Source: Procambarus clarkii (Eukaryota; Arthropoda; Malacostraca; Decapoda; Cambaridae). Taken from it: 64,000 nt of DNA. The translations under genes and the position numbers were made by a program. The notes beneath the pieces were generated by a model. It saw nothing but the letters and a program-made list of their open reading frames with translations. It had not been told where the DNA came from and searched no databases. Position 1 is the first letter of the stretch. Every line of letters starts with the position of its first letter. This document shows positions 5,204-47,759 of the stretch, piece by piece. The stretch lies in contig NC_091209.1 of NCBI RefSeq assembly GCF_040958095.1, positions 4,425,232 to 4,489,231 on the forward strand, read 5' to 3'.

Positions 5204-7743
5204 AAGAGATGGTAATTCAGAACTGTGAAGGTTTCAGTGACTACATATCAGGCACCATAGCAACTGGAGGACAGAAAATTATAGTAGTAGTCATATATAA
5301 CCCCCCACCGAATGACAGAAGACCCAGACAGGAATATGATAGAAACAACTTGGCCACCATCAATATAATAGAGAGAGCAGCTTCTGTGGCTTGCAGGAAC
5401 GGATCCAGGCTACTAATCATGGGAGACTTCAACCATGGAAAGATAGATTGGGGGAACAGAGACCCACATGGAGGCCCAGACACATGGAGAGCTAAGCTGC
5501 TGGATGTGGCAACAAGAAACTTTCTAAGTCAACACGTCAAGGGACCGACAAGAACGATGGGAGGGGATGAACCAGCCTTGCTTGATCTGATATTTACCCT
5601 AAATGGGTCGGATATAAGGGAAGTTAAGTTGGAAGCCCCCTTGGGAATGACTGATCATAGTGTATTGAGCTTTGAGTACCTGGTTGAGCTAGGAATTATC
5701 ACCCCCAAAAAAGAACTGGGAAACAAAGGGCTGGCTTACCGAAAGGGAAACTATGAGGAGATGAATAAATTCCTATGGAATATACATTGGGACACAGAAC
5801 TCGGAACCAAGTCCGTACAAGACATGATGGACTATGTCACCCAAAAATGTCAGAGGGCTGTAAGCAGGTTTGTCCCAGCTCAACAGGAAAAAACAGAGAA
5901 GCAAAGGAAGAATCCGTGGTTTAAAAGGGAATGTATGAAAGCAAAGAAGCTAAACAAAAGGGCATGGAGGAACTTCCGTAATAACAAAACACCAGAAAGT
6001 AGAGAGAGATACCAGAGAACCAGGAACGAGTATTTTAGTGTGAGAAGAGCAGCTGAGAAAAGGTATGAAAATGATATAGCTAATAAAGCCAAGACCGAAC
6101 CAAAGCTACTACACAGTCACATCAGGAGGAAGACAACAGTGAAGGAACTGGTCATGAAACTTAGGGTGGGCGAGGACAGGTACACAGAGAACGACAAAGA
6201 GATGTGTGAAGAACTCAACAAAAGGTTCCAGGAGGTCTTTACAATAGAACAGGGAGAAGTCACGGCGCTAGGAGAGGTGGCAGCAAATCAGGTGACCTTG
6301 GAAAGGTTCGAAATTACAAGAGATGAGGTCAAGAAGCACCTATTGGAGCTGGATGTGAGAAAAGCTGTTGGGCCGGATGGAATCTCACCATGGGTATTGA
6401 AAGAGTGTGCAGGAGCACTTTGCTTGCCACTCTCCATAGTGTATAGTAGGTCACTGGAAACGGGAGACCTACCAGAAATATGGAAGACTGCTAATGTAGT
6501 CCCAATATACAAAAAGGGTGACAGACAAGAGGCACTGAACTACAGGCCAGTGTCCTTAACTTGTATACCATGCAAGGTGATGGAGAAGATTGTGAGAAAA
6601 AACCTAGTAACACATCTGGAGAGAAGAGACTTTGTGACAACCCATCAACATGGGTTCAGGGAGGGTAAATCTTGCCTTACAGGCTTGATAGAATTCTACG
6701 ATCAGGTGACAAAGATTAAGCAAGAAAGAGAAGGATGGGCGGACTGCATTTTTTTGGACTGTCGGAAAGCCTTTGACACAGTACCCCATAAAAGGTTGAT
6801 GTATAAGCTGGAGAAACAGGCAGGAGTAACTGGTAGGGCGCTCCAATGGATAAGGGAGTACCTCAGCAATAGGAAGCAGAGAGTTACAGTGAGGGGTGAG
6901 ACCTCAGAATGGCGTCAAGTCACCAGTGGAGTCCCACAGGGCTCTGTGCTTGGACCTATCCTGTTTCTGATATACGTAAATGATCTCCCAGAGGGTATAG
7001 ACTCATTCCTCTCAATGTTTGCTGACGACGCCAAAATTATGAGAAGGATTAAGACAGAGGAGGACAGCTTGAGGCTTCAAGAAGACCTGGACAAGCTGCA
7101 GGAATGGTCGAACAAATGGCTGTTAGAGTTGGGAGATGAAATACTTCAAGAATCAGAGAGAGAGAAAGACCTGGGGGTTGATATCACGCCAGACCTGTCC
7201 CCTGAAGCTCATATCAAGAGGATAACATCAGCAGCATATGCCAGGTTGGCTAACATAAGAACGGCCTTTAGAAACGTGTGTAAGGAATCTTTCAGAACAT
7301 TATATACCACATATGTCAGACCAATCCTGGAGTATGCGGCTCCAGCATGGAGTCCATATCTAGTCAAGCATAGGACTAAACTGGAAAAGGTTCAAAGGTT
7401 TGCCACCAGACTAGTACCCGAGCTGAGAGGTATGAGCTACGAGGAGAGACTACGGGAATTGAACCTCACTTCGTTGGAAGACAGAAGAGTTAGGGGGGAC
7501 ATGATCACCACATTCAAGATTCTCAAGGGAATCGACAGGGTTGATAAAGACAGGCTATTTAACACAAGGGGCACACGCACTAGGGGACACAGGTGGAAAC
7601 TGAGTGCCCAAATGAGCCACAGAGATATTAGAAAGAACTTTTTTAGTGTCAGAGTGGTTGACAAATGGAATGCATTAGGAAGTAATGTGGTGGAGGCTGA
7701 CTCCATACACAGTTTCAAGTGTAGATATGATAGAGCCCAATAG
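5104..7743 (+). CDS. LINE ORF2: endonuclease-reverse transcriptase (5'-truncated)
   Basis: A single frame of 879 codons. Residues 1 to about 35 come from the upstream SINE tail and should be discarded; LINE homology begins near residue 36. The second half of an APE-like endonuclease follows, with GDFNHGKIDW from residue 107 and a TDH near 184; the first half of the domain (catalytic Asn/Glu region) is absent, so target nicking would be lost. RT spans roughly 400-660, with [31 protein letters not shown] near 609 and FADD at 639-642. The C-terminal block includes LGVDITPDLSPEAHI and SYEERLRELNL. Against fragments 2 and 5, about 23 residues are missing in frame after NKWLLE, roughly a 69-nt deletion in the thumb region. 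The ORF is open but the protein is unlikely to be fully active. Confidence 0.85.
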   Translation: MCLRGLSFALSASLSTVNQLFTNYFFFHHTHSFEEMVIQNCEGFSDYISGTIATGGQKIIVVVIYNPPPNDRRPRQEYDRNNLATINIIERAASVACRNGSRLLIMGDFNHGKIDWGNRDPHGGPDTWRAKLLDVATRNFLSQHVKGPTRTMGGDEPALLDLIFTLNGSDIREVKLEAPLGMTDHSVLSFEYLVELGIITPKKELGNKGLAYRKGNYEEMNKFLWNIHWDTELGTKSVQDMMDYVTQKCQRAVSRFVPAQQEKTEKQRKNPWFKRECMKAKKLNKRAWRNFRNNKTPESRERYQRTRNEYFSVRRAAEKRYENDIANKAKTEPKLLHSHIRRKTTVKELVMKLRVGEDRYTENDKEMCEELNKRFQEVFTIEQGEVTALGEVAANQVTLERFEITRDEVKKHLLELDVRKAVGPDGISPWVLKECAGALCLPLSIVYSRSLETGDLPEIWKTANVVPIYKKGDRQEALNYRPVSLTCIPCKVMEKIVRKNLVTHLERRDFVTTHQHGFREGKSCLTGLIEFYDQVTKIKQEREGWADCIFLDCRKAFDTVPHKRLMYKLEKQAGVTGRALQWIREYLSNRKQRVTVRGETSEWRQVTSGVPQGSVLGPILFLIYVNDLPEGIDSFLSMFADDAKIMRRIKTEEDSLRLQEDLDKLQEWSNKWLLELGDEILQESEREKDLGVDITPDLSPEAHIKRITSAAYARLANIRTAFRNVCKESFRTLYTTYVRPILEYAAPAWSPYLVKHRTKLEKVQRFATRLVPELRGMSYEERLRELNLTSLEDRRVRGDMITTFKILKGIDRVDKDRLFNTRGTRTRGHRWKLSAQMSHRDIRKNFFSVRVVDKWNALGSNVVEADSIHSFKCRYDRAQ

Positions 7744-13799: not shown

Positions 13800-16292
13800 A
13801 GTGTAGATGGCTACAGTGACAGTGGCTACAGTGACAGTGTGGCTACAGTGACAGTGTGGCTACAGTGACAGTGTGGCTACAGTGACAGTGTGGCTACAGT
13901 GACAGTGTGGCTACAGTGACAGTGTGTAGTGTAGATGGCTACAGTGACAGTGGCTACAGTGACAGTGTGGCTACAGTGACAGTGTGGCTACAGTGACAGT
14001 GTGGCTACAGTGACAGTGTGGCTACAGTGACAGTGTGGCTACAGTGACAGTGTGGCTACAGTGACAGTGTGGTTACAGTGACATGTGTGGCTACAGTGAC
14101 AGTGGCTACAGTGACAGTAGCTACAGTGACAGTGGCTACAGTGACAGTGTGGCTACAGTGACAGTGTGGCTACAGTGACAGTGTGGCTACAGTGACAGTG
14201 TGGCTACAGTGACAGTGTGGCTACAGTGACAGTGTGGCTACAGTGACAGTGTGGCTACAGTGACAGTGTGGCTACAATGACAGTGTGGCTACAGTGACAG
14301 TGTGGCTACAGTGACAGTGTGGCTACAGTGACAGTGTGGCTGCAGTGACAGTTTGGCTACAATGACAGTGTGGCTACAGTGACAGTGTCGCTACAGTGAC
14401 AGTGTGGCTACAGTGACAGTGTGGCTACAGTGACAGTGTGGCTACAGTGACAGTGTGGCTGCAGTGACAGTGGCTACAGTGACAGTGTGGCTACAGTGAC
14501 AGTGTGGCTACAGTGACAGTGTGGCTACAGTGACAGTGTGGCAGCAGTGACAGTGGCTACAGTGACAGTGTGGCTACAGTGACAGTATGGCTACAGTGAC
14601 AGTGTGGCTACAGTGACAGTGTGGCTACAATGACAGTGTGGCTACAATGACAGTGTGGCTACAGTGACAGTGTGGCTACAGTGACAGTGTGGCTACAGTG
14701 ACAGTGGCTACAGTGACAGTGTTGCTACAGTGACAGTGTGGCTACTGTGACAATTGCTACAGTGACAGTGTGGCTACAGTGACAGTGTGGCTGCAGTGAC
14801 AGTGTGGCTACAGTGACAGTGTGGCTACAGTGACAGTGTGGCTACAGTGACAGTGTGGCTACAGTGACAGTGTGGCTACAGTGACAGTGTGGCTACAATG
14901 ACAGTGTGGCTACAATGACAGTATGGCTACAGTGACAGTGTGGCTAAAGTGACAGTGTGGCTACAGTGACAGTGGCTACAGTGACAGTGTTGCTACAGTG
15001 ACAGTGTGGCTACAGTGACAGTGTGGCTACAGTGACAATGGCTACAGTGACAGTGTGGCTACAGTGACAGTGTGGCTGCAGTGACAGTGTGGCTACAGTG
15101 ACAGTATGGCTACAGTGACAGTGTGGCTACAGTGACAGTGTGGCTACAGTGACAGTGTGGCTACAGTGACAGTGTGGCTACAGTGACAGTGTGGCTACAG
15201 TGACAATGGATACAGTGACAATGGCTACAGTGACAGTGTGGCTGCAGTGACAGTGTGGCTACAGTGACAGTGTGGCTACAGTGACAGTGTGGCTACAGTG
15301 ACAGTGTGGCTCCAGTGACAGTGTGGCTACAGTGACAGTGTGGCTACAGTGACAGTGTGGCTACAGTTACAGTGGCTACAGTTACAGTGGCTACAGTTAC
15401 AGTGGCTATAGTTACAGTGGCTATAGTGACAGTGGCTACAGTGACAGTGTGGCTACAGTGACAGTGTGGCTACAGTGACAGTGTGGCTACAGTGACAGTG
15501 TGGCTACAGTGACAGTGTGGCTACAAAGACAGTGTAGCTACAGTGACAGTGTGGCTGCAGTGACAGTGTGGCTACAGTGACAGTGTGGCTACAGTGACAG
15601 TGTGGCTACAGTGACAGTGTGGCTACAGTGACAGTGGCTACAGTGACAGTGTTGCTACAGTGACAGTGGCTACAGTGACAGTGTGGCTACAGTGACAGTG
15701 TGGCTACAGTGAGAGTGTGGCTACAGTGACAGTGTGGCTACAGTGAGAGTGTGGCTACAGTGACAGTGTGGCTACAGTGACAGTGTGGCTACAGTGACAG
15801 TGTGGCTACAGTGACAGTGGCTACAGTGACAGTGGCTACAGTGACAGTGTGGCTACAGTGACAGTGTGGCTGCAGTGACAGTTTGGCTTCAATGACAGTG
15901 TGGCTACAGTGACTGTGTGGCTACAGTGACAGTGTGGCTACAGTGACAGTGTGGCTACAATGACAGTGTGGCTACAGTGACAGTGGCTACAGTGACAGTG
16001 TGGCTACAGTGACAGTGTGTAGTGTAGATGGCTACAGTGACAGTGTGGCTACAGTGACAGTGTGGCTACAATGACAGTGTGGCTACAGTGACAGTGGCTA
16101 CAGTGACAGTGTGGCTACAGTGACAGTGTGTAGTGTAGATGGCTACAGTGACAGTGTGGCTACAGTGACAGTGTGGCTGCAGTGACAGTGTGGCTGCAGT
16201 GACAGTGTGGCTACAGTGGCAGTGGCTACAGTGACAGTGTGGCTACAGTGACAGTGGCTACAGTGACAGTGGCTACAGTGACAGTGTGGCTA
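13800..16292. repeat. 17-bp satellite, left part
   Basis: Tandem units of GTGGCTACAGTGACAGT, with 15-bp variants lacking GT and occasional longer units containing GTGTAGTGTAGATG. It is the same array, in the same orientation, as 29182-31042; the Polinton-like element splits it. Together the two parts make about 4.3 kb. Confidence 0.97.
16287..16292. repeat. Target-site duplication, left copy (TGGCTA)
   Basis: The last six satellite bases before the element are TGGCTA; the same six follow the other end at 29182-29187. Removing the element and one copy restores a perfect satellite unit, GTGGCTACAGTGACAG. Six base pairs is the duplication length known for Polinton/Maverick elements. Confidence 0.85.
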
Positions 16293-16329
16293 AGTAGTAG
16301 GGTTGGCGCCACACAGACGAATTTTTTTT

Positions 16330-16460
16330 TCTGGGAGAAAAATCCCCTGTGCGCCCCAAGGGTTTCAGGTAAATTTAGAATATCCCCTGTGCGCCCCAAG
16401 GGTTTCAGGTTCCAATATCATCTATGTGAGCCAAGGTTTTCAGGCGAATTTGGGGAGTCA
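16330..16460. repeat. Subterminal GC-rich repeats, left end
   Basis: Two to three copies of a ~45-bp unit carrying CCCCTGTGCGCCCCAAGGG and TTTCAGG(T/C)(A/G)AATTT, starting about 40 bp from the tip. The right arm has an expanded set at 28620-29150. Subterminal repeats of this kind commonly bind transposition or replication proteins; that role is inferred. Confidence 0.75.
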
Positions 16461-16974
16461 CAGATTTAGAATTAGGGAATTCTTATAATGAAAAATAATG
16501 TCATACGAGTTTGCTAAAGTTCTTATAAGAAAAATAATTTCCGAGACTTAGAAGTTTGTTAAGGCCTTATGGGAGAAATTCAAATAACGTGTGTAGCACT
16601 TTAGGGCTTCCAGGAGAACTCTACGGACATATTTTACATGTTTTCAACTTACAAAATCGTCTATGTAAGCCTTAGTTATTCATATAAATTTAGAAAATCG
16701 CCTGTGTAAGTCATGGTTTTCAAGTCTCGTACATCACACCCCCCTCCCTCCCCCCCTTACCTCGCAATCTGTCGCCTCACCTGTGTTTACTTTAGACGTC
16801 AGCCAGCCAGTCGGCTCTTAATCTTATCTTATCTTATCCATAATATCTGGACCGTCCCTCCTCTCTCTCTCTCTCTCTCTCCTTTCATTCAGTTCAACTA
16901 TTTTCCAACATCGTATGTTTGCTCCTTTTCATTAAGCAAGTCAGTTTTACACAAATAAATCATGTTAGTAAGCA

Positions 16975-18115
16975 AGTTCTAGCTCACGTTCCCCACCTTA
17001 GTCCCCTGTCGTATAAAGAATACTATCATTCCAATCCCTCTAAAATTTAAAAATAATCATATTTCAAATGTAGTTCAATACAGTAATTAGTTACCAAGCT
17101 CCAGCTCTTGTCCTCCGCCTTAGCTCTCTCTCGTATCTTCGTTAGTATCAGTCCAATTTCCCTGAAATTTCTACCCTCTGTATTTCAGACATAGTTTAGT
17201 AAATGCAAACAATTATCAAACTCTAGCTCTTGTCCCCAGCTTAGTTCATTTGTACAAAATCATTAGTAACAGTCCAAATTTCCCTGAAATTTCTACCCTC
17301 TGTATTTCAGACATAGTTTAGTAAATGCAAACAATTATCAAACTCTAGCTCTTGTCCCCAGCTTAGTTCATTTGTACAAAATCATTAGTAACAGTCCAAA
17401 TTTCCCTGAAATTTCTACCCTCTGTATTTCAGACATAGTTTAGTAAATGCAAACAATTATCAAACTCTAGCTCTTGTCCCCAGCTTAGTTCATTTGTACA
17501 AAATCATTAGTAACAGTCCAAATTCCCTGAAATTTCTACCCTCTGTATTTCAGACACCGTAAATAAGATCAAAACAGTTACCAAGCTCCAGCTCTTGTCC
17601 TCCGCCTTAGCTCTCTCTCGTATCTTCGTTAGTAACAGATCAATTCCCCTGAAATTTCTACCCTCTGTATTTCAGACACCGTAAATAAAATCAAAATAGT
17701 TATCGAGCTCCAGCTCTCGTCCCCGCCTTAATTCTCTTTCGTATCTTTGTAAATAACCCATCAATTTCCCTAAAATTAAAAGCAGACATACTTCAAAGTT
17801 AGTAAATAAGATCAAGTCAGTTACTGAGCTCCAGCTCTCGTCCCCGCCTTAGTTCTCTTTCATATCTTCGTTAGTATCAGTCCAATTTCCCTGAAATTTT
17901 TACCCTCTGTATTTCAGACATAGTAAATATGAAGTAAACAATTATAAAACTCTAGCTCTTGTCCTCTGTCCAAGCTCACTTTTGTAAAATCATTACTCTC
18001 AGTCCAAATCACCCAACTACATTTTCAGACATAGTAAATAAAAAACCAGTTCAGTTATTAAGTTTCAACTCTTGTGCCCCAGCTTAGTTCATTTGTACAA
18101 GTTCTTTATTTTCCA
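16975..18115. repeat. ~120-bp tandem repeat inside left TIR
   Basis: About nine units of 118-123 bp, each with AGCTC(C/T)AGCTCTTGTCC, CCCTGAAATTTCTACCCTC and TATTTCAGACA. Three units at about 17218-17580 are almost identical to each other and are represented only once in the other arm, so the array expanded after the two arms were formed. Relatives of this unit also occur at 57990-58085. Confidence 0.85.
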
Positions 18116-19587
18116 ACTAAATCACCCTGAGATTTAAGATCACCGTATTTTCTAACGTAGTAAAATTAATCTGGACATTAGCCTTAGATCATCAGACATA
18201 AATATATTCGATCAAGTCCGTCTCCAGCGTATCTCTTATCCGAGTATACACATAACCCCAACCTGTTTAATTATCTTTCACCCCCTCCCACCTTCCTCCA
18301 TCTCATCCAAGTCTCGTAAATTTAAAATGTAGCTGTTAATTTGCGTTCTTTCCCCGTTCATAGCATATTCTCTGTAAGTTCAGATCTGTACTTAGTCTTA
18401 CATATTCTCTACTTCTTTCCAATTTTATACAAGACTTAAACAACTATTACCGTCTCCTCTATCTTATTTAAACATGAGTCATATGTAAATATACCCCGAC
18501 TCTTTCCATCCAATACAAGTCCTAGCTTGTTCACCGCCCAACTCACTACGCTATTTCTACTCTACATGTTATAGCATGTTTTCCGCTCATCTTGGTACCA
18601 ACCCTTACAATCTCTCTCTCATTCCTTTTACATGTCTCAGCATGTCTCAGCATGTTCGCCTCGCATCTTACTACGCTGTCTACTTTACATGTTGTAGCGT
18701 GTATTACTGTGTCCCATATCTTATTTAAACATGAGTCATATGTAAATATACCCGACTCCTTCCATCCATTACAAGTCCTAGCTTGTTCACCGCCCAACTC
18801 TCTACACTGTCTACTTTACATGTTGTAGCATGTTTTCCGCACATCTTGATACCATCCCTTACAATCTCTCAATCCTTTACACATCCCAACTTTCAACCCT
18901 TTCTTACAATTTTCCTCCATCCCTCCGCTACATGTTCTTACCCGTTCATTACAGTCCACTACTTATTCTCTAATCATCTCTGTACTAATTCTCAAAACTA
19001 GTTGTTTCTGTCATTTTAGTAAGTAAGTAAGTAAGTAGATCATCGTTATTAACAACAACAACAACAACAACAACAGTAACATTACTAATTCACAGTAAGT
19101 TACTACTGAGCATTTGGCAGTTATCCATTTTCAAAATAAGGTCAATATAAATCATTCTAAGACATCTTCGTACAATTAAAGATACTTGCTTGTGCACTAA
19201 GTCATTACTTACAGTACCATCTTAAGGCGTTGTTTTCGTAACTCAGTTTTATTAAACATACACCTTCATTAGTCAAAGGAAAACTTTTCAAGTCATTGTA
19301 TTCAATATTTCCGTTAAACTTACTACATCATGTCATTATTCGGTTTCATAATTAAGTACTTGTTTCAGTCCTCCAATGTAATAAGCAAATTATTCAATTA
19401 AGGATAAAGAAATCTTATTTAGAAGAGACATTAAGTTTATTACAACATTTAACGCATACAGTTATTCTTAGTAGTTATACAGGTATTCAAGAAATCACAA
19501 GTGTTCTTAGTAGTTATACAAGTGTTCAAGAAAATCATATACAAGTGTTCTTAGTAGTTATACAGGTATTCAAGAAATCTTAAGTGT

Positions 19588-21046
19588 TCAAGAAGCAATT
19601 GGATTTATTATATATAAAATATTTCCTCTACAAATTGGACAGCATTTCAGAGCTAAAAGACAACCACTGCACGTCACCATATGTTTACATGGTAGTATTA
19701 CAATATTTATATTTTTATCCATACAAACTCTGCATAAAATATCTTCTTCCCAAGATTGTTCTGTACAGTCCTTGTTTTCAACAGTGTTAGTACAAGTCTC
19801 CGGTAAAGTTTTCAATCCCAGATCTTCAAGCGTAACTTCTTGTTCCTTTTTATCATCAACTGCTTCATAAATTAAGTCCCGTACCCGTAAATAAATATCT
19901 GTTCCCTCTTGCATATACCTCAACACGATTTCTAGACATCTACTTTGTATAATAAAAGGCAACAAATCTCTGGATTCCTTAAGGTACTCACTTAAAGCAT
20001 ATCTTATACTCTCCACAGGTATTAATTTTTTATGAATCAGATGTTTGAACTTATCCATACCCTCCATTAAGATATTAATTAAATCATTGTCTATAGGTTT
20101 TATAGGTAATGGTATTGTCAATCTAGCATTCTTAACAAATTCCTTGCCCCTTGCAAGAATAATGTAAGCACATTCTGGACTACATCTCGCATGTAACGTC
20201 CAAGGATCATCTTCTGGTCTCCAATTTCGTATTCCACAGGCGCAGTGATAGCAGCAGACGTGGTCACTTATACCTGAAAACCATAAAACAATCCAGCATT
20301 ATCTCGTTACTATCTTTTAACAAATATTCATTATTTCTTTACTTATAACTCTATTAAGTTTAAAATAGTTAAAACACTTCATACCACAGTAAAAAAAACC
20401 AGCTTCTGCCAGCTCATGAGAAGTTTGCTTGACGCTTCCAGGCCATGTCATATCAAATGTCTCTAGGCGACATTTATAAGTTACCAATCCTGGATTCAGC
20501 GATTTCCTAAATTTTATCAATCCCAGATCTTCCTTAGGAGGAGCACCACCTAAAAAAAAATATAACGTAGTTACGTAAATTATTCTTTAGAAGAATAAGA
20601 AGTATCTATTTAAGCAATCAAGTTTTGTACAGAGTATATAAGACTGGCATAAGAATACATCATAAGAATATATACTTACTACTATCACTTATTTTCTTAT
20701 TTCCCAGTTCTATTTTATGGGAAACAAATTCCAGTCCATATTTGAAAGCTATCTCAGACACCTCTAAAGAAACATTGTCACTCCTCTCGCCTCTAATAAA
20801 GGCACAGTCTTGATTAATGATCTTATGACGTCTTCTGGGGGTATCACCAACAATCCATGCACCTACTATACAATAACAAAATGCACACAAACAGTAATCA
20901 CTATTGCGAAGGTAATAGAACCCATCTTCAACTAAGTCAATAGGGTTTAACCACTTAATGGGCCAATCCACAAATGTTTGTAGTCTAACTCCTGCACATT
21001 TAAGGCTTTCTATACTGTAAAACTTCCTGGCACACAAAGGATCCAT
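19588..21046 (-). CDS. IAP: BIR-BIR-RING inhibitor-of-apoptosis protein
   Basis: Three blocks with GT-AG borders: 21046-20680, 20549-20385 and 20273-19588, all in phase. Block 1 holds a first BIR with the CxxC...H(x6)C zinc set (16 residues between the second Cys and His). A second BIR begins in block 2 (RLETFDMTWPGSV, HELAEAGFFYCG) and finishes in block 3, which supplies its CYHC, RNWRPEDDPW and HARCSPEC. A helical region with LIHKKLIPVESIRYALSEYL follows, UBA-like by position, and then a C-terminal C3HC4 RING (CRVCMDKN, LPCKHMVTC, CCPICRGN). IAPs of this layout bind caspases or IAP antagonists through the BIRs and ubiquitylate them through the RING. The ATG sits in CACACGATGG, with a TATA-like run upstream. 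It is probably a captured host gene, divergently transcribed from the macro-domain cluster. Confidence 0.85.
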
Positions 21047-21611
21047 CGTGTGAGGGCAGCACTAGCTATTAGAGTAGGATAAGCAAGTATATATATCCCT
21101 AAAATAAGTATCGTACATCGCTACATATTTAACAGTTTCCTCATTTATAATAGACAGTAATCTCCTCTAAATACTTCTCTATTTAAAAATCCTTAAAGTT
21201 TCATAATTAAATGAAGCTCTTATATAAATACTTAGTAAACTACTTTCATTATTTATTAGACTTATTAGAAAAATACATCACTTTGGCAATCTCGCTAAAA
21301 GTATACTGTTACGTCATTATTCGTAGCTGCCGTACATAATGATAGATATATATATATATAATTTAGTAGTAAATTCTTATTTAATCTAATTAAAATATAT
21401 GCTTAAAGCATCTATATCCTAAAATGAAATATACTATTAGTTATAATGTAATATATAATATCACTCTAAGGTAACAAAAATCCTTATTAATATATTCAAA
21501 TAAGTGGTAACTTTTACATTTCCCCCAATATAAGAGCGCGGACCTCGCATTAGGGATATTATTACGACTATCTGGTTCGTATCTACTACCTTACGAGGAA
21601 GAAAATTCACC
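21047..21611. promoter_or_regulatory. Divergent promoter region between IAP and first macro-like gene
   Basis: A 565-bp AT-rich gap between two start codons facing apart. On the minus strand a TATATATA box lies at about 21089-21096, some 43 bp before the IAP start, inside AGGGATATATATACTTGC. On the plus strand TATAAG at 21529-21534 lies 83 bp before the ATG at 21612, and TAGGGATATTATTACG lies between them. A GGGATAT motif thus recurs at both genes, and also at 24186. Confidence 0.55.
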
Positions 21612-22232
21612 ATGGATACTGTTCTGACAACTTGTCAGGGTTATTTAACCGACGATTCATTTTGTAATAATGAAACCTGTATTGTGTACGGAGTGAACTG
21701 TATATCCTGTGTTCCCAGAGGAATGGCTCTAGACTTAGCCAAGAAATATTCTCATGCTGATGCTTATAATGTTCGCCGACCCTTGTACAGTCTTAAGAGA
21801 TGTATCCCTGAAGATCGTCCAGTACCAGGAACAATTCATATCTCTAAAGGAGAAAATCTTCCGTATATTGTTGCTATAGCCACACAATACGGTATTGGAT
21901 TACCTATAGAAAGTAATAACATTGCTCAGGGAATTATAGAAAACTCAAAAGACAGAAACATGCTCTCTGGATTAAACGAAGATACATCCATTAATCGTCT
22001 CGTCTACTTCAAGAATGGTATGAAAGATTTATTTAACTTTATCAAGGGCTCTCCTCAAATTATGAGAGTTATAATACCAACAGGAATTGGGATTACATGT
22101 GTTCGAAGAGATAAAGTTTGGGAAAATACTTATCTTCCTGTTATTGAAGATATGTATAAACAGTTAAAACCCTACGGAGTGGAAGTTAAATTACTGTTTA
22201 ACGAGGAGATTATGCAGAGGAAGAGCAAGTAA
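21612..22232 (+). CDS. Macro-domain-like protein, paralog 1
   Basis: 206 residues; the start is chosen because the ATG lies in CACCATGG, a strong animal initiation context. Sequence features in order: CIVYGVNC near 24-31, MALDLAKKYSHAD (the helix after the ligand loop), PGTIHI near 77, IVAIATQYGIG near 93, RLVYFKNGMKDLF, and RVIIPTGIGITC from about 151, followed by WENTYLPVIEDM. This order (open first strand, GxA-like helix, Y/W-rich start of the last third, (I/V)IP.GIG loop, then a helix) matches ADP-ribose-binding macro domains of the Poa1/ADP-ribose glycohydrolase type. Two similar genes follow. Likely activity, by family inference only: binding or removing ADP-ribose. It could also be a degenerate fold without activity. 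Confidence 0.55.
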   Translation: MDTVLTTCQGYLTDDSFCNNETCIVYGVNCISCVPRGMALDLAKKYSHADAYNVRRPLYSLKRCIPEDRPVPGTIHISKGENLPYIVAIATQYGIGLPIESNNIAQGIIENSKDRNMLSGLNEDTSINRLVYFKNGMKDLFNFIKGSPQIMRVIIPTGIGITCVRRDKVWENTYLPVIEDMYKQLKPYGVEVKLLFNEEIMQRKSK

Positions 22233-22370
22233 CACTTGGCAACCTTTTGTGTGCGCAGTGTTTCTACGCGCAGCCTAAAGATGTATATATGCTTCCCCCG
22301 GAGTGATCTCTTACGGTGTCCTCCTCTTCTTGGATGTCAGAATCTACTTCAAGCTTGGATATTCAAGGCT

Positions 22371-23270
22371 ATGGAGATCAAGACTATTATTGGAGACTTT
22401 GCCTCCCTGCCCGTCTACAATAATCACGACTGTTTATTGTACGATCTTGATGCTACGAGTGTACAAATGTGTAAAATTGTGCAAGGATTGCGGGATCGTT
22501 ACCCATATGCGAGATTACATCGTGAAAACTTTCCTTACAAAAACAGGGCTGTTGTATCTTATCGCAGTAACCCTGGCAGTATACATATTGGAGAACCACC
22601 TGAATTTAACAACAGGATGGATGAAGATCCCCATCTACCCCTTATTATTGGTTTAGTGACTCAGTTTGCTAGTAGACCTGCAACTTTACCAGCATATGAA
22701 AATCCTCCGTGTGAAGTACGAAGTTTAGATGAACATTTTTACGATGGACTTGAAAAAGATACAGAATATCAGAGATGGCGCTGGTTTGAAAATGCTCTGA
22801 AGGAAGCCCTTGTTTTCATTCTTAAAAGATGTGTTAAGAGAATTATTATTCCATATGGGTTTGGCATGTCAAGTTATTTGGACAACTGCGCAGTATGGGA
22901 AAGTAAATATTTGCCTATACTTGAGAAAATAGGACAAAAACTACGAAAACGAGGTATTGTACTCTTCATAGTACGTCCCGAAAACATCGTTCCTCCTCAG
23001 TCATCCACCCACGGCATCTTTGAAAATAAGATTCCATACATTGCTGTTCTTCAAAATGGATCCACAACTAATGCTACTGATGCTGCTAGGACACCTGAAG
23101 ATGATGCTACGCCTGCTACCGCTGATGCTAGTTCACCTTCTATCAACACTAAGTTGTCTGATACAATTAATTCAACACCTGTTAATGTTACTACGTCTGT
23201 TGATACTAATGTTACAATGTGTGTTAGTAGTAGTTTTACAAATTTAGAAGAGAAGATGGATTGGGAATAA
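22371..23270 (+). CDS. Macro-domain-like protein, paralog 2, with Ser/Thr tail
   Basis: 299 residues from ATG 22371. This start aligns with the starts of paralogs 1 and 3; an upstream ATG at 22281 would add 30 residues with no counterpart, and a TATATATGC run at about 22283 fits a promoter there. Features: NHDCLLYDLDA, an acidic/aromatic core with PGSIHIG, LIIGLVTQFAS, RWRWFENALKEAL, RIIIPYGFGMSSY (loop near 162) and WESKYLPILEKI. These align with paralogs 1 and 3. About 70 residues after position 230 are low-complexity Thr/Asp/Ala/Ser-rich and end in EEKMDWE; no domain is recognised there. The stop is followed by an AT-rich region with TTAAATA repeats. Function is inferred only from the macro-like core. 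Confidence 0.55.
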   Translation: MEIKTIIGDFASLPVYNNHDCLLYDLDATSVQMCKIVQGLRDRYPYARLHRENFPYKNRAVVSYRSNPGSIHIGEPPEFNNRMDEDPHLPLIIGLVTQFASRPATLPAYENPPCEVRSLDEHFYDGLEKDTEYQRWRWFENALKEALVFILKRCVKRIIIPYGFGMSSYLDNCAVWESKYLPILEKIGQKLRKRGIVLFIVRPENIVPPQSSTHGIFENKIPYIAVLQNGSTTNATDAARTPEDDATPATADASSPSINTKLSDTINSTPVNVTTSVDTNVTMCVSSSFTNLEEKMDWE

Positions 23271-23411
23271 TAATGTCTGTAAATAATTTATACTTTGTAC
23301 ATTTTTACAAATTAAATACATTGTACATTTTTACACATTAAATAACAAAATAGAAACTCGTGTGTTTATTTTCTCCCTTTTTAATGTCTAAATGTCAACT
23401 CTACTTTTCTG

Positions 23412-23420
23412 AGTATATAG
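23412..23420 (+). promoter_or_regulatory. TATA-like box of paralog 3
   Basis: GTATATAGG lies about 40 bp before the ATG at 23456, which leaves room for transcription start 25-30 bp downstream and a very short leader. It supports separate transcription of each gene in the cluster. Confidence 0.45.
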
Positions 23421-23455
23421 GAAGAGGTACGAAACTTTTTCTGTCTTACTTCAAG

Positions 23456-24082
23456 ATGGATTGTTCTATGTACATGCAAGTGAAGCTTAAGCGTTTGAAT
23501 AAGTGTATTATAGATGCTGATTTTACTAGTGATGAAATTCTAAAACCTGGAGACTGTCTTGTCTACGATTCTCATAATTTATCTGGTGGATTTGCACAAC
23601 TGTTATGGGAAAAATATCCTTACAGTAAAGTTTCCGAGTGTGAAGTGGTACAGAATAATATAACTCCTGGTGGTATAGTACTTGCTTTATCTCCAGAACC
23701 AGAAATAAAACCTCATATTATAGGACTTCAATACAGTAGCTCTAATGAAGATCTAGGATTACAGAAAGATATTATTAAACGTTGGAGTTTTAAATCTGCA
23801 ATAAGGCAAATTTGTTGTCAGGCAAGAAATAATAATTTAATCCAGCGTATAATTATTCCATATGGTATTGGGTTTAATGACGGAATAGGATGGAGTAAAG
23901 AAGAACAAGAAGAATGGGAGACACACTATTTTCCAGGACTAGCCCATTTAGCTTATGTTTTAAAGAATAATAAAAAAGAATTATTAATGGTTCGTATACC
24001 TCTTGGAGAAGATGTTACGGGGACTGGGAGAGAGAAGAAACAAGTAGAGGGTAGATCTAATAAACGGAAGAGAATGTCGTAG
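23456..24082 (+). CDS. Macro-domain-like protein, paralog 3
   Basis: 208 residues from ATG 23456 (CAAGATGGAT context). The frame is open further upstream, but the upstream part overlaps the TATA-like box and has no match in the paralogs. It is the clearest macro-type sequence of the three: GDCLVYDSHNLSGGFAQLLW (first strand, loop and helix), KYPYSKV, PGGIVLAL, HIIGLQYSS, RWSFKSAIRQI, then RIIIPYGIGFNDGIGW with the GIG loop near residue 137 and a following Gly-Trp as in Poa1-type macro domains. A short Lys/Arg-rich tail ends the protein. The expected ligand is ADP-ribose; catalysis cannot be judged by eye. Together the three copies form a tandem family within 2.5 kb. Confidence 0.6.
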   Translation: MDCSMYMQVKLKRLNKCIIDADFTSDEILKPGDCLVYDSHNLSGGFAQLLWEKYPYSKVSECEVVQNNITPGGIVLALSPEPEIKPHIIGLQYSSSNEDLGLQKDIIKRWSFKSAIRQICCQARNNNLIQRIIIPYGIGFNDGIGWSKEEQEEWETHYFPGLAHLAYVLKNNKKELLMVRIPLGEDVTGTGREKKQVEGRSNKRKRMS

Positions 24083-24159
24083 TTAAAACTAGTAGATCTG
24101 AAATAATACATATAACTAATTTGGAAACTACAGCTAAGAGAGAGGGGGCGGAGCGTAAC

Positions 24160-24246
24160 AATCTCCGATGTGATAAGCTAGGTCGGGATATATCTTGACA
24201 TAAACTCCCCATCTCGGTCCAGCAGTGAGAAGACATACTCGGATCG
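24160..24246 (+). promoter_or_regulatory. Promoter region of the methyltransferase-like gene
   Basis: A TATAT core at 24189-24193 inside GTCGGGATATATCTTGACAT, about 55 bp before an ATG at 24247. The GGGATAT(A) motif is shared with the IAP promoter and with the region before the first macro-like gene, suggesting common regulation within the element. Confidence 0.45.
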
Positions 24247-25663
24247 ATGGCTGCTGTATACAGTAAGTGATTATTGTATGATGTACTTACAGTACTCGTT
24301 ATATTTGTTGTGATATAATTTTTGCTTATTATTGAATATCTTTTAGTTTTGAAATATTATGATTATTTAATAGTCCCTGTGTTAAATATTGTATTTTTCT
24401 TTGTTTAAAGATCTACCCCATGTGATGGATGTGAAGAGTCTACCAGGGTTTGGAAGCATGCCTGATCTTGTGTCAGAAACTATATGGCAAAGTCCAGCTT
24501 CGACTGTTTTGTGGAAGAATATGCCCCTGGCTGAAAAACGGACTTATAAAGTGATGACACATACTGATAAATGTACGCATGAGAACATTGTTCCAGCTCT
24601 AGCAAAGTTTATTAGCAAAAGTGAAAATGTTTTAATGATACTGATCGGTCATGATTTTATAAAGTTGAAAGAAGAACTTCCAATGATAAAATGCGACATA
24701 GTCTTATTTAGCTTAAAAGAGAGTGTTACAGATGTACTCAAGAAACATGAGAATTGTCAAGTGTTGTTGCTGACGAAAACTCCTAGTAAGGCCGAGATGA
24801 AGAAAATTTCTTTGTTATTTAAAGGCGATAAAATAATTTGCACTTTTAGACCTAAACCCCGTTTTAAATACATATTTCCAGAATTTGAAGAAGTGCCTAT
24901 AGGATGTAACTTAAAGGATAAATTTTTTATAAGAAAATTTGTGGATGAAATTGGTTCTCCAAATGCTGCAAACTGGTTTATTAATAAGTTGAGTTCTGAA
25001 GAACGAGAAGTGTATACTATAATGAGCCAGGATGAACTGCAACAGCAGGTAAATAGTAAGACTGTGAAAGAGCTTAGTATTATTCACCCTAAAACAGAAG
25101 AAGATGAACATTGGAGTTTAATTGATCATATGGAGGAGAGCTTTCCATCTTTTCCGTTAAATTTAATAAAGATGAGACCAGAAATAGGATATCATACCCC
25201 CCAAAAGATAGAAATAGAGGCAGTGATGAGATTTATAGGACAGGATCCTGTACTTGGTGTTTTCTCTGGTATGGCCTTTATTGAAAATCTTATTAGGATA
25301 AGACATACTAATGTGGTACGAGCTACAGATAATTACTCGAATATGGGTGAGAGTAAGTGGATGGAGGTTGAACAAATGGATGCTGTAGAAGCAGTTAGGA
25401 CTTATTGTAATGACAGAGAAGTACTTCTAATGTCCTGGCCTGAATTGATTCGTGATGATAATGTTTATAGCGATGCTTTCTATGTTTTAAAGGAATTTAA
25501 GGGACAAAAACTAATCTATTTTGGAGAAGGGGAAGGGGGATGCTGTGCATGTGATGGATTTTTTAACTTGCTGGATAGTGAGTTTCATTGTGTGAAATCA
25601 AATACATGTTTTACTTATAATTCTTTTATAAATTCAAATGTTTATTTCTATATAAGACTATAG
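24247..25663 (+). CDS. Protein with methyltransferase-like C-terminal domain
   Basis: The main block is open from 24389 to 25663. A short leader exon is likely: ATG at 24247, donor GTAAGTG at 24263, acceptor after 24410, phase preserved. That gives about 422 residues. The N-terminal ~270 residues are unrecognised, with alternating strand/helix character (NVLMILIGHDFI, CQVLLLTK, KIICTFRP) suggesting an alpha/beta fold. The C-terminal part has VLGVFSGMAFIENLI (glycine-poor motif-I-like), NVVRATDNY, VEAVRTYC, EVLLMSWPELI and KLIYFGEGEGGCCACDGFF. That series (G.G...E.LL, D, LL.WP, Y.GE..GG.t.d..ff) is typical of a broadly spread family of uncharacterised SAM-methyltransferase-like proteins. No substrate can be named. 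It ends a few bases before the right inverted repeat. Confidence 0.45.
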
Positions 25664-27344
25664 TGTTTATGATTTCTTGAACACTTGTATAACTACTAAG
25701 AACACTTGTATATGATTTTCTTGAACACTTGTATAACTACTAAGAATACTTGTATATAATTGCTTCTTGAACACTTATGATTTTCTTGAACACTTGTATA
25801 ACTACTAAGAACACTTGTATATGATTTTCTTGAACACTTGTATAACTACTAAGAATACTTGTATATAATTGCTTCTTGAACACTTATGATTTCTTGAACA
25901 CTTGTATAACTACTAAGAACACTTATGATTTCTTGAATACCTGTATAACTACTAAGAACACTTGTATGCGTTAAATGTTGTAATAAACTTAATGCCTCTT
26001 CTAAATAAGATTTCTTTATCCTTAATAGAATAATTTGCTTATTACATTGGAGGACTGAAACAAGTACTTAATTATGAAACCGAATAATGACATGATGTAG
26101 TAAGTTTAACGGAAATATTGAATACAATGACTTGAAAAGTTTTCCTTTGACTAATGAAGGTGTATGTTTAATAAAACTGAGTTACGAAAACAATGCCTTA
26201 AGATGCTACTGTAAGTAATGACTTAGTGCACGGGCAAGTATCTTTAATTGTACGAAGATGTCTTAGAATGATTTATATTGACATTATTTGAAAATGGATA
26301 ACTACCAAATGCTCAGTAGTAACTTACTGTGAATTAGTAATGTTACTGTTGTTGTTGTTGTTGTCGTTGTTAATAACGATGATCTACTTACTTACTTACT
26401 AAAATGACAGAACCAACTAGTTTTGAGAATTAGTACAGAGATGATTAGAGAATAAGTAGTGGACTGTAATGAACGGGTAAGAACATGTAGCGGAGGGATG
26501 GAGGAAAATTGTAAGAAAGGGTTGAAAGTTGGGATGTGTAAAGGATTGAGAGATTGTAAGGGATGGTATCAAGATGTGCGGAAAACATGCTACAACATGT
26601 AAAGTAGACAGTGTAGAGAGTTGGGCGGTGAACAAGCTAGGACTTGTAATGGATGGAAGGAGTCGGGTATATTTACATATGACTCATGTTTAAATAAGAT
26701 ATGGGACACAGTAATACACGCTACAACATGTAAAGTAGACAGCGTAGTAAGATGCGAGGCGAACATGCTGAGACATGCTGAGACATGTAAAAGGAATGAG
26801 AGAGAGATTGTAAGGGTTGGTACCAAGATGAGCGGAAAACATGCTATAACATGTAGAGTAGAAATAGCGTAGTGAGTTGGGCGGTGAACAAGCTAGGACT
26901 TGTATTGGATGGAAAGAGTCGGGGTATATTTACATATGACTCATGTTTAAATAAGATAGAGGAGACGGTAATAGTTGTTTAAGTCTTGTATAAAATTGGA
27001 AAGAAGTAGAGAATATGTAAGACTAAGTACAGATCTGAACTTACAGAGAATATGCTATGAACGGGGAAAGAACGCAAATTAACAGCTACATTTTAAATTT
27101 ACGAGACTTGGATGAGATGGAGGAAGGTGGGAGGGGGTGAAAGATAATTAAACAGGTTGGGGTTATGTGTATACTCGGATAAGAGATACGCTGGAGACGG
27201 ACTTGATCGAATATATTTATGTCTGATGATCTAAGGCTAATGTCCAGATTAATTTTACTACGTTAGAAAATACGGTGATCTTAAATCTCAGGGTGATTTA
27301 GTTGGAAAATAAAGAACTTGTACAAATGAACTAAGCTGGGGCAC

Positions 27345-28085
27345 AAGAGTTGAAACTTAATAACTGAACTGGTTTTTTATTTACTATGTCTGAAAATGTA
27401 GTTGGGTGATTTGGACTGAGAGTAATGATTTTACAAAAGTGAGCTTGGACAGAGGACAAGAGCTAGAGTTTTATAATTGTTTACTTCATATTTACTATGT
27501 CTGAAATACAGAGGGTAAAAATTTCAGGGAAATTGGACTGATACTAACGAAGATATGAAAGAGAACTAAGGCGGGGACGAGAGCTGGAGCTCAGTAACTG
27601 ACTTGATCTTATTTACTAACTTTGAAGTATGTCTGCTTTTAATTTTAGGGAAATTGATGGGTTATTTACAAAGATACGAAAGAGAATTAAGGCGGGGACG
27701 AGAGCTGGAGCTCGATAACTATTTGATTTTATTTACGGCGTCTGAAATACAGAGGGTAACAATTTAAGGGAAATTGGACTGTTACTAATGATTTTGTACA
27801 AATGAACTAAGCTGGGGACAAGAGCTAGAGTTTGATAATTGTTTGCATTTACTAAACTATGTCTGAAATACAGAGGGTAGAAATTTCAGGGAAATTGGAC
27901 TGATACTAACGAAGATACGAGAGAGAGCTAAGGTGGAGGACAAGAGCTGGAGCTTGGTAACTAATTACTGTATTGAACTACGTTTGAAATATGATTATTT
28001 TTAAATTTTAGAGGGATTGGAATGATAGTATTCTTTATACGACAGGGGACTAAGGTGGGGAACGTGAGCTAGAACTTGCTTACTA
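27345..28085. repeat. ~120-bp tandem repeat inside right TIR
   Basis: Six to seven units, the inverse of those at 16975-18115, with GGACAAGAGCT(A/G)GAG and CTGAAATACAGAGGGTA. The copy number is lower than in the left arm. Confidence 0.85.
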
Positions 28086-28619
28086 ACATGATTTATTTGT
28101 GTAAAACTGACTTGCTTAATGAAAAGGAGCAAACATACTGACTTGCTTAATGAAAAGGAGCAAACATACGATGTTGGAAAATAGTTGAACTGAATGAAAG
28201 GAGAGAGAGAGAGGAGGGACGGTCCAGATATTATGAGAAGATAACATAAGATAAGAGGTCTGGCTGACCGGGCGTAAAGTAAACACAGGTGAGGCGACAG
28301 ATTGCGAGGTACGGGGGGGAGGGAGGGGGGTGTGATGTACGAAACCCTGAAAACAATGACTTACACAGGTGATTTTCTAAATTTATATGAATAACTAAGG
28401 CTTACATAGACGATTTTGTAAGTTGAAAACATGTAAAATATGTCCGTAGAGTTCTCCTGGAAGCCCTAAAGTGCTACACATGTTATTTGAATTTCTCCCA
28501 TAAGGCCTTAACAAACTTCTAAGTCTCGGAAATTATTTTTCTTATAAGAACTTTAGCAAACTCGTATGACATTATTTTTCATTATAAGAATTCCCTAATT
28601 CTAAATCTGTGACTCCCCA

Positions 28620-29150
28620 AATTCACCTGAAAACCCTTGGGGCGCACAGGGGATATTTGACCTGAAACCCTTGGGGCGCACAGGGGATTTTTGACCTGAA
28701 ACCCTTGGGGCGCACAGGGGATATTCTAAATTTACCTGAAACCCTTGGGGCGCACAGGCACTTTTTTTCCCAGAGTTCTCCTGGAAGCCCTAAAGTGCTA
28801 CACACGTTATTTGAATTTCTCCCATAAGGCTTTAACAAACTTCTAAGTCTCGGAAATTATTTTTCTCATAAGAAATCCATACTTCTAAAATCTGTGACTG
28901 CCCAAATTCGCCTGAAAAACCCTGGCTCACAAACACGAATTTCTAAATTTACCTGAAACCCTTGGGGCGCACAGGGGATATTCTAAATTTACCTGAAACC
29001 CTTGGGGCGCACAGGGGATTTTTCTCCCAGAAAAAAAAATTCCCCTGTGTGGAGCCATCCCTTACCTGAAACCCTTGGGGCGCACAGGGGATATTCTAAA
29101 TTTACCTGAAACCCTTGGGGCGCACAGGGGATTTTTCTCCCAGAAAAAAA
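28620..29150. repeat. Subterminal GC-rich repeats, right end (expanded)
   Basis: About eight copies of ACCTGAAACCCTTGGGGCGC followed by ACAGGGGAT, some grouped with a TTCTCCCAGAAAAAAAAATT block that also forms the element tip. The tip block itself appears twice, at about 29020-29045 and 29130-29160, so the arm end was partly duplicated. Confidence 0.9.
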
Positions 29151-29181
29151 AATTCGTCTGTGTGGCGCCAACCCTACTACT

Positions 29182-29187
29182 TGGCTA
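29182..29187. repeat. Target-site duplication, right copy (TGGCTA)
   Basis: TGGCTA directly after ...CCCTACTACT, identical to 16287-16292, and continuing into the satellite unit in register. Confidence 0.85.
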
Positions 29188-31042
29188 CAGTGACAGTGTG
29201 GCTGCAGTGACAGTGTGGCTACAGTGACAGTGTGGCTACAGTGACAGTGTGGCTACAGTGACAGTGTTGCTACAATGACAGTGTGGCTACAATGACAGTG
29301 TGGCTACAGTGACAGTGTGGCTACAGTGACAGTGTGGCTACAATGACAGTGTGGCTACAGTGACAGTGGCTACAGTGACAGTGTGGCTACAGTGACAGTG
29401 TGGCTACAGTGACAGTGTGTAGTGTAGATGGCTACAGTGACAGTGGCTACAGTGACAGTGTGGCTACAGTGACAGTGTGGCTACAGTGACAGTGTGGCTA
29501 CAGTGACAGTGTGGCTACAGTGACAGTGTGTAGTGTAGATGGCTATAGTGACAGTGTGGTTACTGTGACAGTGTGGCTGCAGTGACGGTGTGGCTGTAGT
29601 GACAGTGTGGCTACAGTGACAGTGGCTACAGTGACAGTGTGGCTACAGTGACAGTGGCTACAGTGACAGTGGCTACAGTGACAGTGGCTACAATGACAGT
29701 GTGGCTACAATGACAGTGTGGCTACAATGACAGTGTGGCTACAGTGACAGTGTGGCTACAGTGACAGTGTGGCTACAGTGACAGTGTGGCTACAATGACA
29801 GTTTGGCTACAATGACAGTGTGGCTACAGTGACAGTGGCTACAGTGACAGTGTGGCTACAGTGACTGTGTAGCTACAGTGACAGTGTGGCTACAGTGACA
29901 GTGTGGCTACAGTGACAGTGTGGCTACAGTGACAGTGTGGCTACAGTGACAGTGTGGCTACAGTGACAGTGTGGCTACAGTGACAGTGTGGCTACAGTGA
30001 CAGTGTGGCTACAGTGACAGTGTGGCTACAGTGACAGTGTGGCTACAGTGACAGTGTGGCTACAGTGACAGTGTGTCTACAGTGACAGTGTGGCTACAGT
30101 GACAGTGTGGCTACAGTGACAGTGTGGCTACAGTGACAGTGTGGCTACAGTGACAGTGTAGCTACAGTGACAGTGTGGCTACAGTGACAGTGTGGCTACA
30201 GTGACAGTGTGGCTACAGTGACAGTGGCTACAGTGACAGTGTGGCTACAGTGACAGTGTGGCTACAGTGACAGTGTGGCTACAGTGACAGTGTGGCTACA
30301 GTGACAGTGTGGCTACAGTGACAGTGGCTACAGTGACAGTGTGGCTACAGTGACAGTGTGGCTACAGTGACAGTGTGGCTACAGTGACAGTGTGGCTACA
30401 GTGACAGTGTGGCTACAGTGACAGTGGCTACAGTGACAGTGTGGCTACAGTGACAGTGTGGCTACAGTGACAGTGTGGCTACAGTGACAGTGTGGCTACA
30501 GTGACAGTGGCTACAGTGACAGTGTGGCTACAGTGACAGTGTGGCTACAGTGACAGTGGCTACAGTGACAGTGTGGCTACAGTGACAGTGTGGCTACAGT
30601 GACAGTGTGGCTACAGTGACAGTGTGGCTACAGTGACAGTGTGGCTACAGTGACAGTGTGGCTACAGTGACAGTGTGGCTACAGTGACAGTGTGGCTACA
30701 GTGACAGTGTGGCTACAGTGACAGTGTGGCTACAGTGACAGTGTGGCTACAGTGACAGTGGCTACAGTGACAGTGTGGCTACAGTGACAGTGTGGCTACA
30801 GTGACAGCGTGTAGTGTAGATGGCTACAGTGACAGTGTGGCTACAGTGACAGTGTGTAGTGTAGATGGCTACAATGACAGTGTGGCTACAGTGACAGTGT
30901 GTAGTGTAGATGGCTACAATGACAGTGTGGCTACAGTGACAGTGTGGCTACAGTGACTGTGTGGCTACAGTGACAGTGTGGCTACAGTGACAGTGTGGCT
31001 ACAGTGACAGTGTGGCTACAGTGACAGTGTGGCTACAGTGAC
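29188..31042. repeat. 17-bp satellite, right part
   Basis: Continuation of the GTGGCTACAGTGACAGT array in the same orientation as 13800-16292, with the same longer variants containing GTGTAGTGTAGATG. It ends near 31042 with ACATGTGTAGTGAAGAT. Confidence 0.97.
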
Positions 31043-31463
31043 ATGTGTAGTGAAGATCATCAGGCCACAGGAAAGAGTGCCCAAACGTTCCGTCCTGGCC
31101 CCCCCCCCCCCTCCCGTTTGAACGAGCCTCGCATCTTCGGCAGCCGCCGGCCAGGGCCGTTTGAAGATCTCGTATCCCACGTGACGTTTGGCCGCCAATG
31201 TATTAAGGTTCCCCGCAGCCAAAAAGGCGGAGCACAAGAGCTCACGTTCCACTCTGTACCCCCCACATATAGCTAAGTATACGTATACAATCATCCTCAC
31301 TTCTTCAAGAAATGAGGATGATTCCTCCTGGTAATGACTAACTCTCCACCTCTCTAACTCTGCCTACCTAACAGCTTCTTCCTCTATCTCAACCTCTACC
31401 CTATCCTTCAATCACTCAACCCCATTATCAGCATTTTGGTTTACTCACAAGCGTGGGTATACC
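31043..31463. other. GC-rich spacer, no gene recognised
   Basis: A (C)12 run, a CG-containing block at about 31100-31260 (GCCGCCGGCCAGGGCCG) and TA-rich sequence with TATACGTATA at about 31278. Short frames on both strands have no motif. It could be a fragment of a dispersed repeat or a small CpG-rich regulatory segment; I cannot decide. Confidence 0.35.
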
Positions 31464-46290: not shown

Positions 46291-46299
46291 TCGGTGACA

Positions 46300-47660: not shown

Positions 47661-47759
47661 TGTTGATGAGCTGTGGAACATCACCAGCAGGAAGCCAGTC
47701 GACGACGACGCAGGAAGAACCCAGTTTGTTGGCTCCTCACACTTCAACCGGGTATGTAA

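Follow-up and report, generated by a model that had tools for sequence, protein, structure and literature searches.

The question raised by this locus of Procambarus clarkii is what kind of mobile element carries an IAP gene, three macro-type paralogs and a methyltransferase-like (MT-like) gene in the place of core genes. In the window (the whole stretch of 64,000 nucleotides analysed), an insertion of 12,889 bp extended from 16293 to 29181, with tips (AGT)2...(ACT)2 corresponding to the Maverick/Polinton end motif; vertebrate Mavericks are described with (AGT)2//(ACT)2 ends and a 6-bp target site duplication in the available portion of PMC8097293. The left flank ended in GTGTGGCTA, followed by AGTAGTAGGG from position 16293, and on the right CCCTACTACT ended at 29181 and was followed by the flank TGGCTACAG. 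The element had inverted arms of about 3.3 kb, paired over most of their length (segments of 1,340 nt at 100%, 405 nt at 97%, 376 nt at 98% and 288 nt at 99%, among others) and containing tandem repeats of about 121 bp; the arms of intact vertebrate Mavericks are shorter (46-1,447 bp in the same portion of PMC8097293). The same 17-bp satellite was present on both sides (13808-16292 and 29182-31047), as one array interrupted by the insertion. Because both flanks consist of this satellite, the 6-bp duplication TGGCTA was ambiguous at the window locus alone, and it was settled by copies with other flanks. Ten frames of at least 80 aa were listed in the element: the exons of the cargo genes and, besides these, short frames that lie in the arms or overlap others. 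The features were as follows.

16287..16292, no strand: left 6-bp target duplication TGGCTA, at the satellite end (read at the junction and from other copies)
16293..29181, no strand: whole non-autonomous Polinton-type element, 12,889 bp, (AGT)2...(ACT)2 tips
16293..19583, plus strand: left inverted-repeat arm, its outer ~590 bp common to PolB-bearing elements
19588..20273, minus strand: IAP coding exon 3, with the end of the second BIR, the C-terminal RING and the stop at 19588 (agrees with P0009)
20385..20549, minus strand: IAP coding exon 2, first part of the second BIR (agrees with P0009)
20680..21046, minus strand: IAP coding exon 1, with the start codon and the first BIR (Pfam BIR E 2.5e-14)
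21612..22232, plus strand: macro-fold protein 1, 206 aa (predicted fold, Foldseek comparison)
22371..23270, plus strand: macro-like paralog 2, 299 aa (homology to protein 1)
23384..24082, plus strand: macro-like paralog 3, 232 aa (homology to protein 1)
24247..24262, plus strand: 5' coding exon of the MT-like gene (matches the P0001 N-terminus)
24411..25663, plus strand: main exon of the MT-like gene, C-terminal domain matching phrog_19090
25667..29181, minus strand: right inverted-repeat arm
29182..29187, no strand: right 6-bp target duplication TGGCTA (read at the junction and from other copies)

A search for other insertions with the same tips, the check proposed in the earlier note, gave exact 6-bp duplications in 12 of 13 tip pairs of this genome (11 of 12 in one set, plus C1:44.6 Mb); the only pair without a matching duplication, at C16:15.7 Mb, was itself a PolB element. 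The element is real and mobile, and the earlier description of a 12.9-kb insertion with 5'-AG ends, long inverted repeats and a 6-bp duplication was borne out by the exact ends, the paired arms and the copies elsewhere. An inverted repeat of the ordinary chromosomal kind, or an assembly artefact, would account for the inverted arms only and can practically be dismissed, since the duplications lie at unrelated sites and the insertion breaks a single satellite array. The same copies, with their tips and duplications, contradicted the case that had been named in advance as fatal to the claim, that of single-copy host genes within a chromosomal inverted repeat, and a single host gene cluster was likewise rejected. 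Tip pairs spanned 12.1-13.8 kb in 17 of 17 cases of the first search, whatever their content, and nine of the 11 pairs of the second search fell in that range; the other two, both on C59, measured 28.2 kb, which weakened the idea of a size constraint. A third class of elements with the same tips had neither such core genes as PolB nor the cargo genes in any of the eight interiors or centres read, and since these elements have also spread, mobility does not require the cargo. The MT-like frame was scored in 99 copies out of 624 candidates; recent spread was indicated by their high identity (94-100%) and by the absence of stops in 93 of the 99.

The IAP was a single gene with three coding exons, encoding two BIRs and a RING, and its frames matched the Pfam families BIR (E 2.5e-14) and zf-C3HC4_3 (7.7e-13). 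Splice sites were read by eye and agreed with the NCBI prediction P0009, to which the spliced model was 99% identical over 100%. The total of five genes given in the earlier note was retained, but the listed RING and BIR frames turned out, from the P0009 match, to be the outer exons of this one gene. As for the three macro-domain-like paralogs proposed earlier, the macro fold was obtained for protein 1 and the two others were assigned by homology, no macro Pfam match being found among the element frames in the Pfam profile search. Fold comparison of protein 1 gave macrodomains, with a plant SPX complex (7d3y) in the second and fourth Foldseek ranks. In the PDB, the macro profile also matched a fatty acyltransferase (E 2e-4), a result discounted in view of the macrodomains returned by the fold comparison.

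The MT-like gene comprised two exons, the short one at 24247-24262 having been overlooked previously (it agrees with P0001), and its C-terminal domain fell within the viral MT-like family phrog_19090 (E 1.7e-10). Three of eight viral members of this family matched Methyltransf_23 with values from 2e-4 to 0.015, below the cut-off, and comparison of the MT-like profile with the PDB returned mostly MTases (best E 0.007). The structure model built from two sequences was poor (pLDDT 33) and no fold claim was drawn from it. A DNA motif scan (34 loci) reached a distant viral family of the protein, with at least 22 ORFs at phmmer E < 1e-8; with the motif masked, the best E was 2e-11, whereas none of 20 unmasked shuffles scored better than 0.13. 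As these viral ORFs were selected by the same motif, the unbiased evidence is the phrog_19090 match. Peptide patterns confirmed no relatives of the MT-like, macro or integrase queries in viral_contigs. Judged from its sequence, the protein is predicted to be methyltransferase-like.

Among the matches listed, an MT-like gene lay about 4.5-5.9 kb from 20 of 23 window-type IAP copies (counted by eye) and within 5 kb of all 28 window-type macro-2 copies. A second IAP-macro lineage, also multi-copy, occurred in the genome; by our own reading of the second tip search, no tip was listed near its IAP copies. Purifying selection was detected on the IAP exons, with dN/dS of 0.21-0.72, mostly 0.2-0.5, in pairs with dS > 0.01. 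In three disjoint pairs, chosen after the table had been seen, 42 of 84 changes were synonymous (P from 2e-9 to 1e-4 according to the synonymous share assumed). Constraint is far stronger in cyprinid Maverick genes, for which the text available from PMC8097293 reports dN/dS of 0.001-0.0001. Among ten IAP copies, indels occurred in exon 2 of four and in exon 3 of one. Internal stops were present in exon 3 of two of the ten (C29 and C12), which, like the indels, was counted against the favoured reading.

Selection on the IAP would also be expected if the arms had trapped a host block of IAP, macro and MT-like genes whose copies the crayfish keeps for its own benefit, for example against nimaviruses or the autonomous Polinton. 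The spliceosomal introns fit such an origin, as does the IAP tree, in which the element gene fell (support 98/96) within a group that, as far as its members carry names, comes from decapods and nimaviruses. However, many dispersed, near-identical copies over many contigs better fit spread at the level of the element, and the relatives found for the MT-like and macro queries were only P. clarkii predictions and unnamed contigs, in a search insensitive to distant relatives; we regard service to the host as an improbable explanation. The tree also bears on whether the locus is a piece of a bigger viral genome, for instance that of an endogenous nimavirus. Nimaviruses likewise have an intron-bearing IAP and several macro-domain (wsv206-like) genes, both carried by Nimav-1_LVa in the part of PMC7016691 consulted, and their IAPs were matched by that of the element at 31-35% identity. 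In contrast, they differ in ends and size, two of the three nimavirus IAPs grouped apart (85/95) and the third was a long, unplaced branch. A viral fragment is largely refuted by tip pairs that are complete, span 12-14 kb and carry 6-bp duplications, and it was rejected as very unlikely.

Nine frames of the autonomous relative (the C-terminal part of PolB, the ATPase, the integrase and six others, from a relative read without its left 4 kb) had no tblastn match in the element with an E-value below 0.33; for the frames tested, this and the ORF list upheld the earlier claim of a chassis without core replication or capsid genes. PolB was enclosed by only five of the 17 tip pairs of the first search (C307, C72, C16 twice, and C40). 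The tips at C307, C72 and C16:15.7 Mb were 100% identical to those of the window element along 118 or more of the 120 bases, and the interior at C16:14.77 Mb contained PF03175, PF04665, PF00665 and PF00385, among them an A32-type ATPase and a chromodomain integrase. A PolB-bearing element with the same tips is, from these similarities, the likely helper. Its capsid gene was assigned by position and size only, no confirming match being obtained for capsid protein or protease (Peptidase_C48 at E 0.033 only). By these tests, the window element lacks what defines an autonomous Polinton (PolB, integrase, packaging ATPase and capsid genes) and has what characterizes a non-autonomous member, namely (AGT)2...(ACT)2 ends with inverted repeats, a 6-bp duplication and an autonomous relative with the same tips, whose capsid is a candidate one. 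As to origin, it may descend from a complete ancestral Polinton that lost its core half and kept its accessory half, a route compatible with helper dependence, so that the confidences placed in the two overlap. Accessory regions stand beside core modules in vertebrate Mavericks (available portion of PMC8097293) and the size class is that of the autonomous element, but the scoring of 87 PolB and 99 MT-like places yielded a single pair less than 20 kb apart (C8), which proved to be two adjoining insertions with separate tip pairs; we give this origin somewhat less than even odds.

The reading that we favour, with a probability of about 0.72, is a non-autonomous, helper-dependent Polinton/Maverick whose cargo is kept by selection. 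The PolB of an autonomous relative would copy the element from the shared tips, the chromodomain integrase would insert it, and the packaging ATPase and capsid genes of the helper may package it. The helper would supply the core functions and the dependent element those of host control, the cargo being kept by selection as the lineage spreads. The probable job of the cargo would be to keep the cell alive and blind in its defences while element DNA is made: the IAP would block caspase-driven death and the macro proteins would bind or remove ADP-ribose marks. The overall interpretation of the earlier note, a host-interaction cargo on a coreless Polinton-like chassis, was therefore supported, with cargo functions that remain predicted. 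A satellite virus of an animal polintovirus, in which only the helper tips and a packaging-sized length of 12-14 kb are kept and one class bears a conserved set of genes that counter cell death and defence by ADP-ribosylation, is a tentative and rather doubtful extension; packaging is suggested solely by uniformity of size (12-14 kb, with two pairs of 28 kb).

The element shares with Polintons/Mavericks (polintoviruses, adintovirus-type) the (AGT)2 ends, inverted repeats, 6-bp duplications and size class, and differs from them in coding for IAP, macro and MT-like proteins instead of the core frames tested. Like phage satellites (PICI) and virophages or satellite viruses, it would depend on the genes of another element and carries genes for host or helper interaction; here, dependence and packaging are inferred, the helper shares tips and size class, and the host is an animal germline. 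Non-autonomous transposons usually lose their coding capacity. Pack-type transposons (Pack-MULE) and other gene-carrying transposons are likewise non-autonomous with captured coding sequence, but Pack-MULEs hold fragments, in contrast with the whole, mostly intact and linked genes present here in many copies. No Polinton with an IAP-macro-MT-like cargo was found described in the titles and abstract openings of the open-licence literature. What distinguishes the locus is a coreless chassis that retains, beside a likely helper with identical tips, mostly intact and linked genes directed against host death and probably also against ADP-ribosylation. As a cultured species, the crayfish offers a test case for three questions on animal Polintons: are particles still formed, do satellites of them exist, and do such elements need defence-blocking genes? 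Some crayfish predictions named 'BIRC8-like' or 'uncharacterized' by NCBI (P0009 and P0001) are genes of a mobile element.

The window occupies C60:4425232-4489231 (C numbers denote contigs) of the 4.03-Gb P. clarkii assembly. Two cargo proteins had close counterparts among NCBI predictions for this species (98% for the MT-like protein with P0001; 99% for the IAP with P0009). The insertion and its surroundings were delimited as follows:

13808-16292, satellite array on the left
16293-29181, insertion
29182-31047, satellite array on the right

The left flank ends in TGGCTA, after which the element starts with AGTAGTAGGGTTGGCGCC; the right end mirrors the left and TGGCTA follows directly. Since both flanks are a single 17-bp satellite, the duplication at this site proves little by itself. 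The available text of PMC8097293 describes vertebrate Maverick ends with an (AGT)2//(ACT)2 motif and 6-bp duplications, and the crayfish ends agree in both.

Other insertions with the same tips, which the earlier note had proposed looking for, were present in the P. clarkii genome. A 120-bp tip query gave 79 matches (40 of 1,102 candidates scored), among which 17 inverted tip pairs were readable, spaced 12,082-13,755 bp (mean 13,038 bp, SD 454; spans taken by eye). An exact 6-bp direct repeat occurred at 11 of the 12 pairs with both flanks compared, window included, and no longer match was found at those 11 when lengths up to 14 bp were checked; the pair at C16:15.7 Mb had no matching duplication in the flanks compared. 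With a pair outside this set (C1:44.6 Mb), which also carried a 6-bp duplication, the total came to 12/13, bearing out the duplication length that the earlier note had read at the window. Some insertions (C36, C25) had non-repetitive flanks (repeat fraction 0.05-0.08) and others satellite flanks. Many insertions lie inside satellite arrays, with a repeat fraction of at least 0.7 at 12/30 tip-flank loci; this would fit chromodomain-guided integration.

A variant tip query also gave 79 matches (40 of 1,205 candidates scored) and 11 pairs read by eye, leaving out a mixed tip cluster on C58: nine at 12.5-13.6 kb and two at 28.2 kb on C59 (28090474-28118675 and 28166615-28194866), about twice the usual size, which may reflect one insertion nested in another, a larger element, or tips that do not belong together. 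A packaging limit would produce such uniform size regardless of gene content; given the two 28-kb pairs and the limited scoring, this is a hypothesis.

The 17 pairs fell into three classes. Class A (5/17; C307, C72, C16:15.7, C40, C16:14.77) enclosed PolB, copies of which were 98-100% identical, with a stop in 0 of 87 scored (of 3,329 candidates). The interior of C16:14.77, read beyond its left 4 kb, contained DNA_pol_B_2 (5e-9), Pox_A32 (2.8e-8), rve (7e-9) and Chromo (4e-6) domains and, in its right part, frames of 145, 136, 450 and 185 aa; the 185-aa frame weakly matched an Ulp1-type protease (E 0.033), and the 450-aa frame is a candidate capsid protein, judged by size and place. Class B (4/17; C60, which is the window, C94, C45 and C59) enclosed an MT-like gene. 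For class C (8/17), seven 1.8-kb centres and one 5.2-kb interior were read; neither cargo nor core genes were seen in them, the longest frame of the 5.2-kb interior was 185 aa, and all eight sequences belong to one homologous family. The outer ~590 bp of the window element were common to the class A tips compared, and the class B and C tips compared had a longer stretch of arm in common with it. One satellite on C8 held two elements separated by ~160 bp: a B element at 40300289-40313019, which enclosed an MT-like gene, and an A element at 40313180-40326734, which enclosed PolB. This block seemed to occur twice (C8:40300289-40326734 and C8:40402098-40428509), in opposite orientation and with ~100 kb between the two, which hints at a local inverted duplication. 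Tested by ends, duplications and helper, the window element is a non-autonomous Polinton/Maverick member, with putative action of the helper in trans; by analogy of function, it would work similarly to a satellite of a virus.

Among 99 MT-like copies scored (94-100% identical), six had one stop. At ≤96% identity 11/14 rows were stop-free, against 0.28-0.44 expected in a neutral simulation at 95-96% identity, in a comparison limited by common descent among the rows and by the bias of the search towards close matches. For IAP exons of the window and 10 other copies, dS was ≤0.077 and dN/dS 0.21-0.72 for pairs with dS >0.01 (mostly 0.2-0.5); three disjoint pairs (C29-C12, C61-C1, C27-C46), picked after the dN/dS table had been seen, held 42 synonymous and 42 non-synonymous changes. 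Exon 3 had extra stops in 2/10 copies (C29, C12), and some copies had indels. Cargo was more alike than arms in two copies whose arm and cargo matches were separate (C46, 97.7% vs. 90%; C27, 96.4% vs. 83-95%). ORFs on many viral contigs matched phrog_19090, the viral family without assigned function matched by the MT-like C-terminal domain; it appears to be of methyltransferase type and to have WPPY and YIGEGxGGC motifs.

Two lineages contain a divergent IAP-macro pair. In the second, P0014-type IAPs gave 164 matches (117 of 1,799 candidates scored; best 74 rows 92-100% identical) and P0006-type macro genes 126 (125 of 2,144; best 68 rows 89-100% identical, leaving out later partial rows, several near an IAP). 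This macro lay ≤20 kb from the IAP in 54/74 rows, on the opposite strand in 54/54 (median distance 3.7 kb, range 3.5-16.1), and 0/74 had an MT-like neighbour within 20 kb among the 99 MT-like places scored; window-type macro-2 had an MT-like gene ≤5 kb away in 28/28 rows. Ten rows belonged to a third type of macro gene (56-58%), which had neither neighbour among the rows compared. According to the available text of PMC7016691, nimaviruses likewise have IAP and macro-domain genes, so this pairing of functions is already known in decapod viruses; no non-autonomous Polinton made of them was found in the titles and abstract beginnings of the open-licence literature searched.

P0005, a P. clarkii protein that NCBI predicts as 'ionotropic receptor 93a-like', has a macro-1 paralog at its end, and an element gene therefore appears fused into a host gene model. 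Elsewhere in the window, a non-LTR reverse-transcriptase-like frame (5104-7743) and several gag-like frames with a CCHC zinc knuckle in both orientations (46294-63933) were seen by eye, the latter likely LTR retrotransposon copies.
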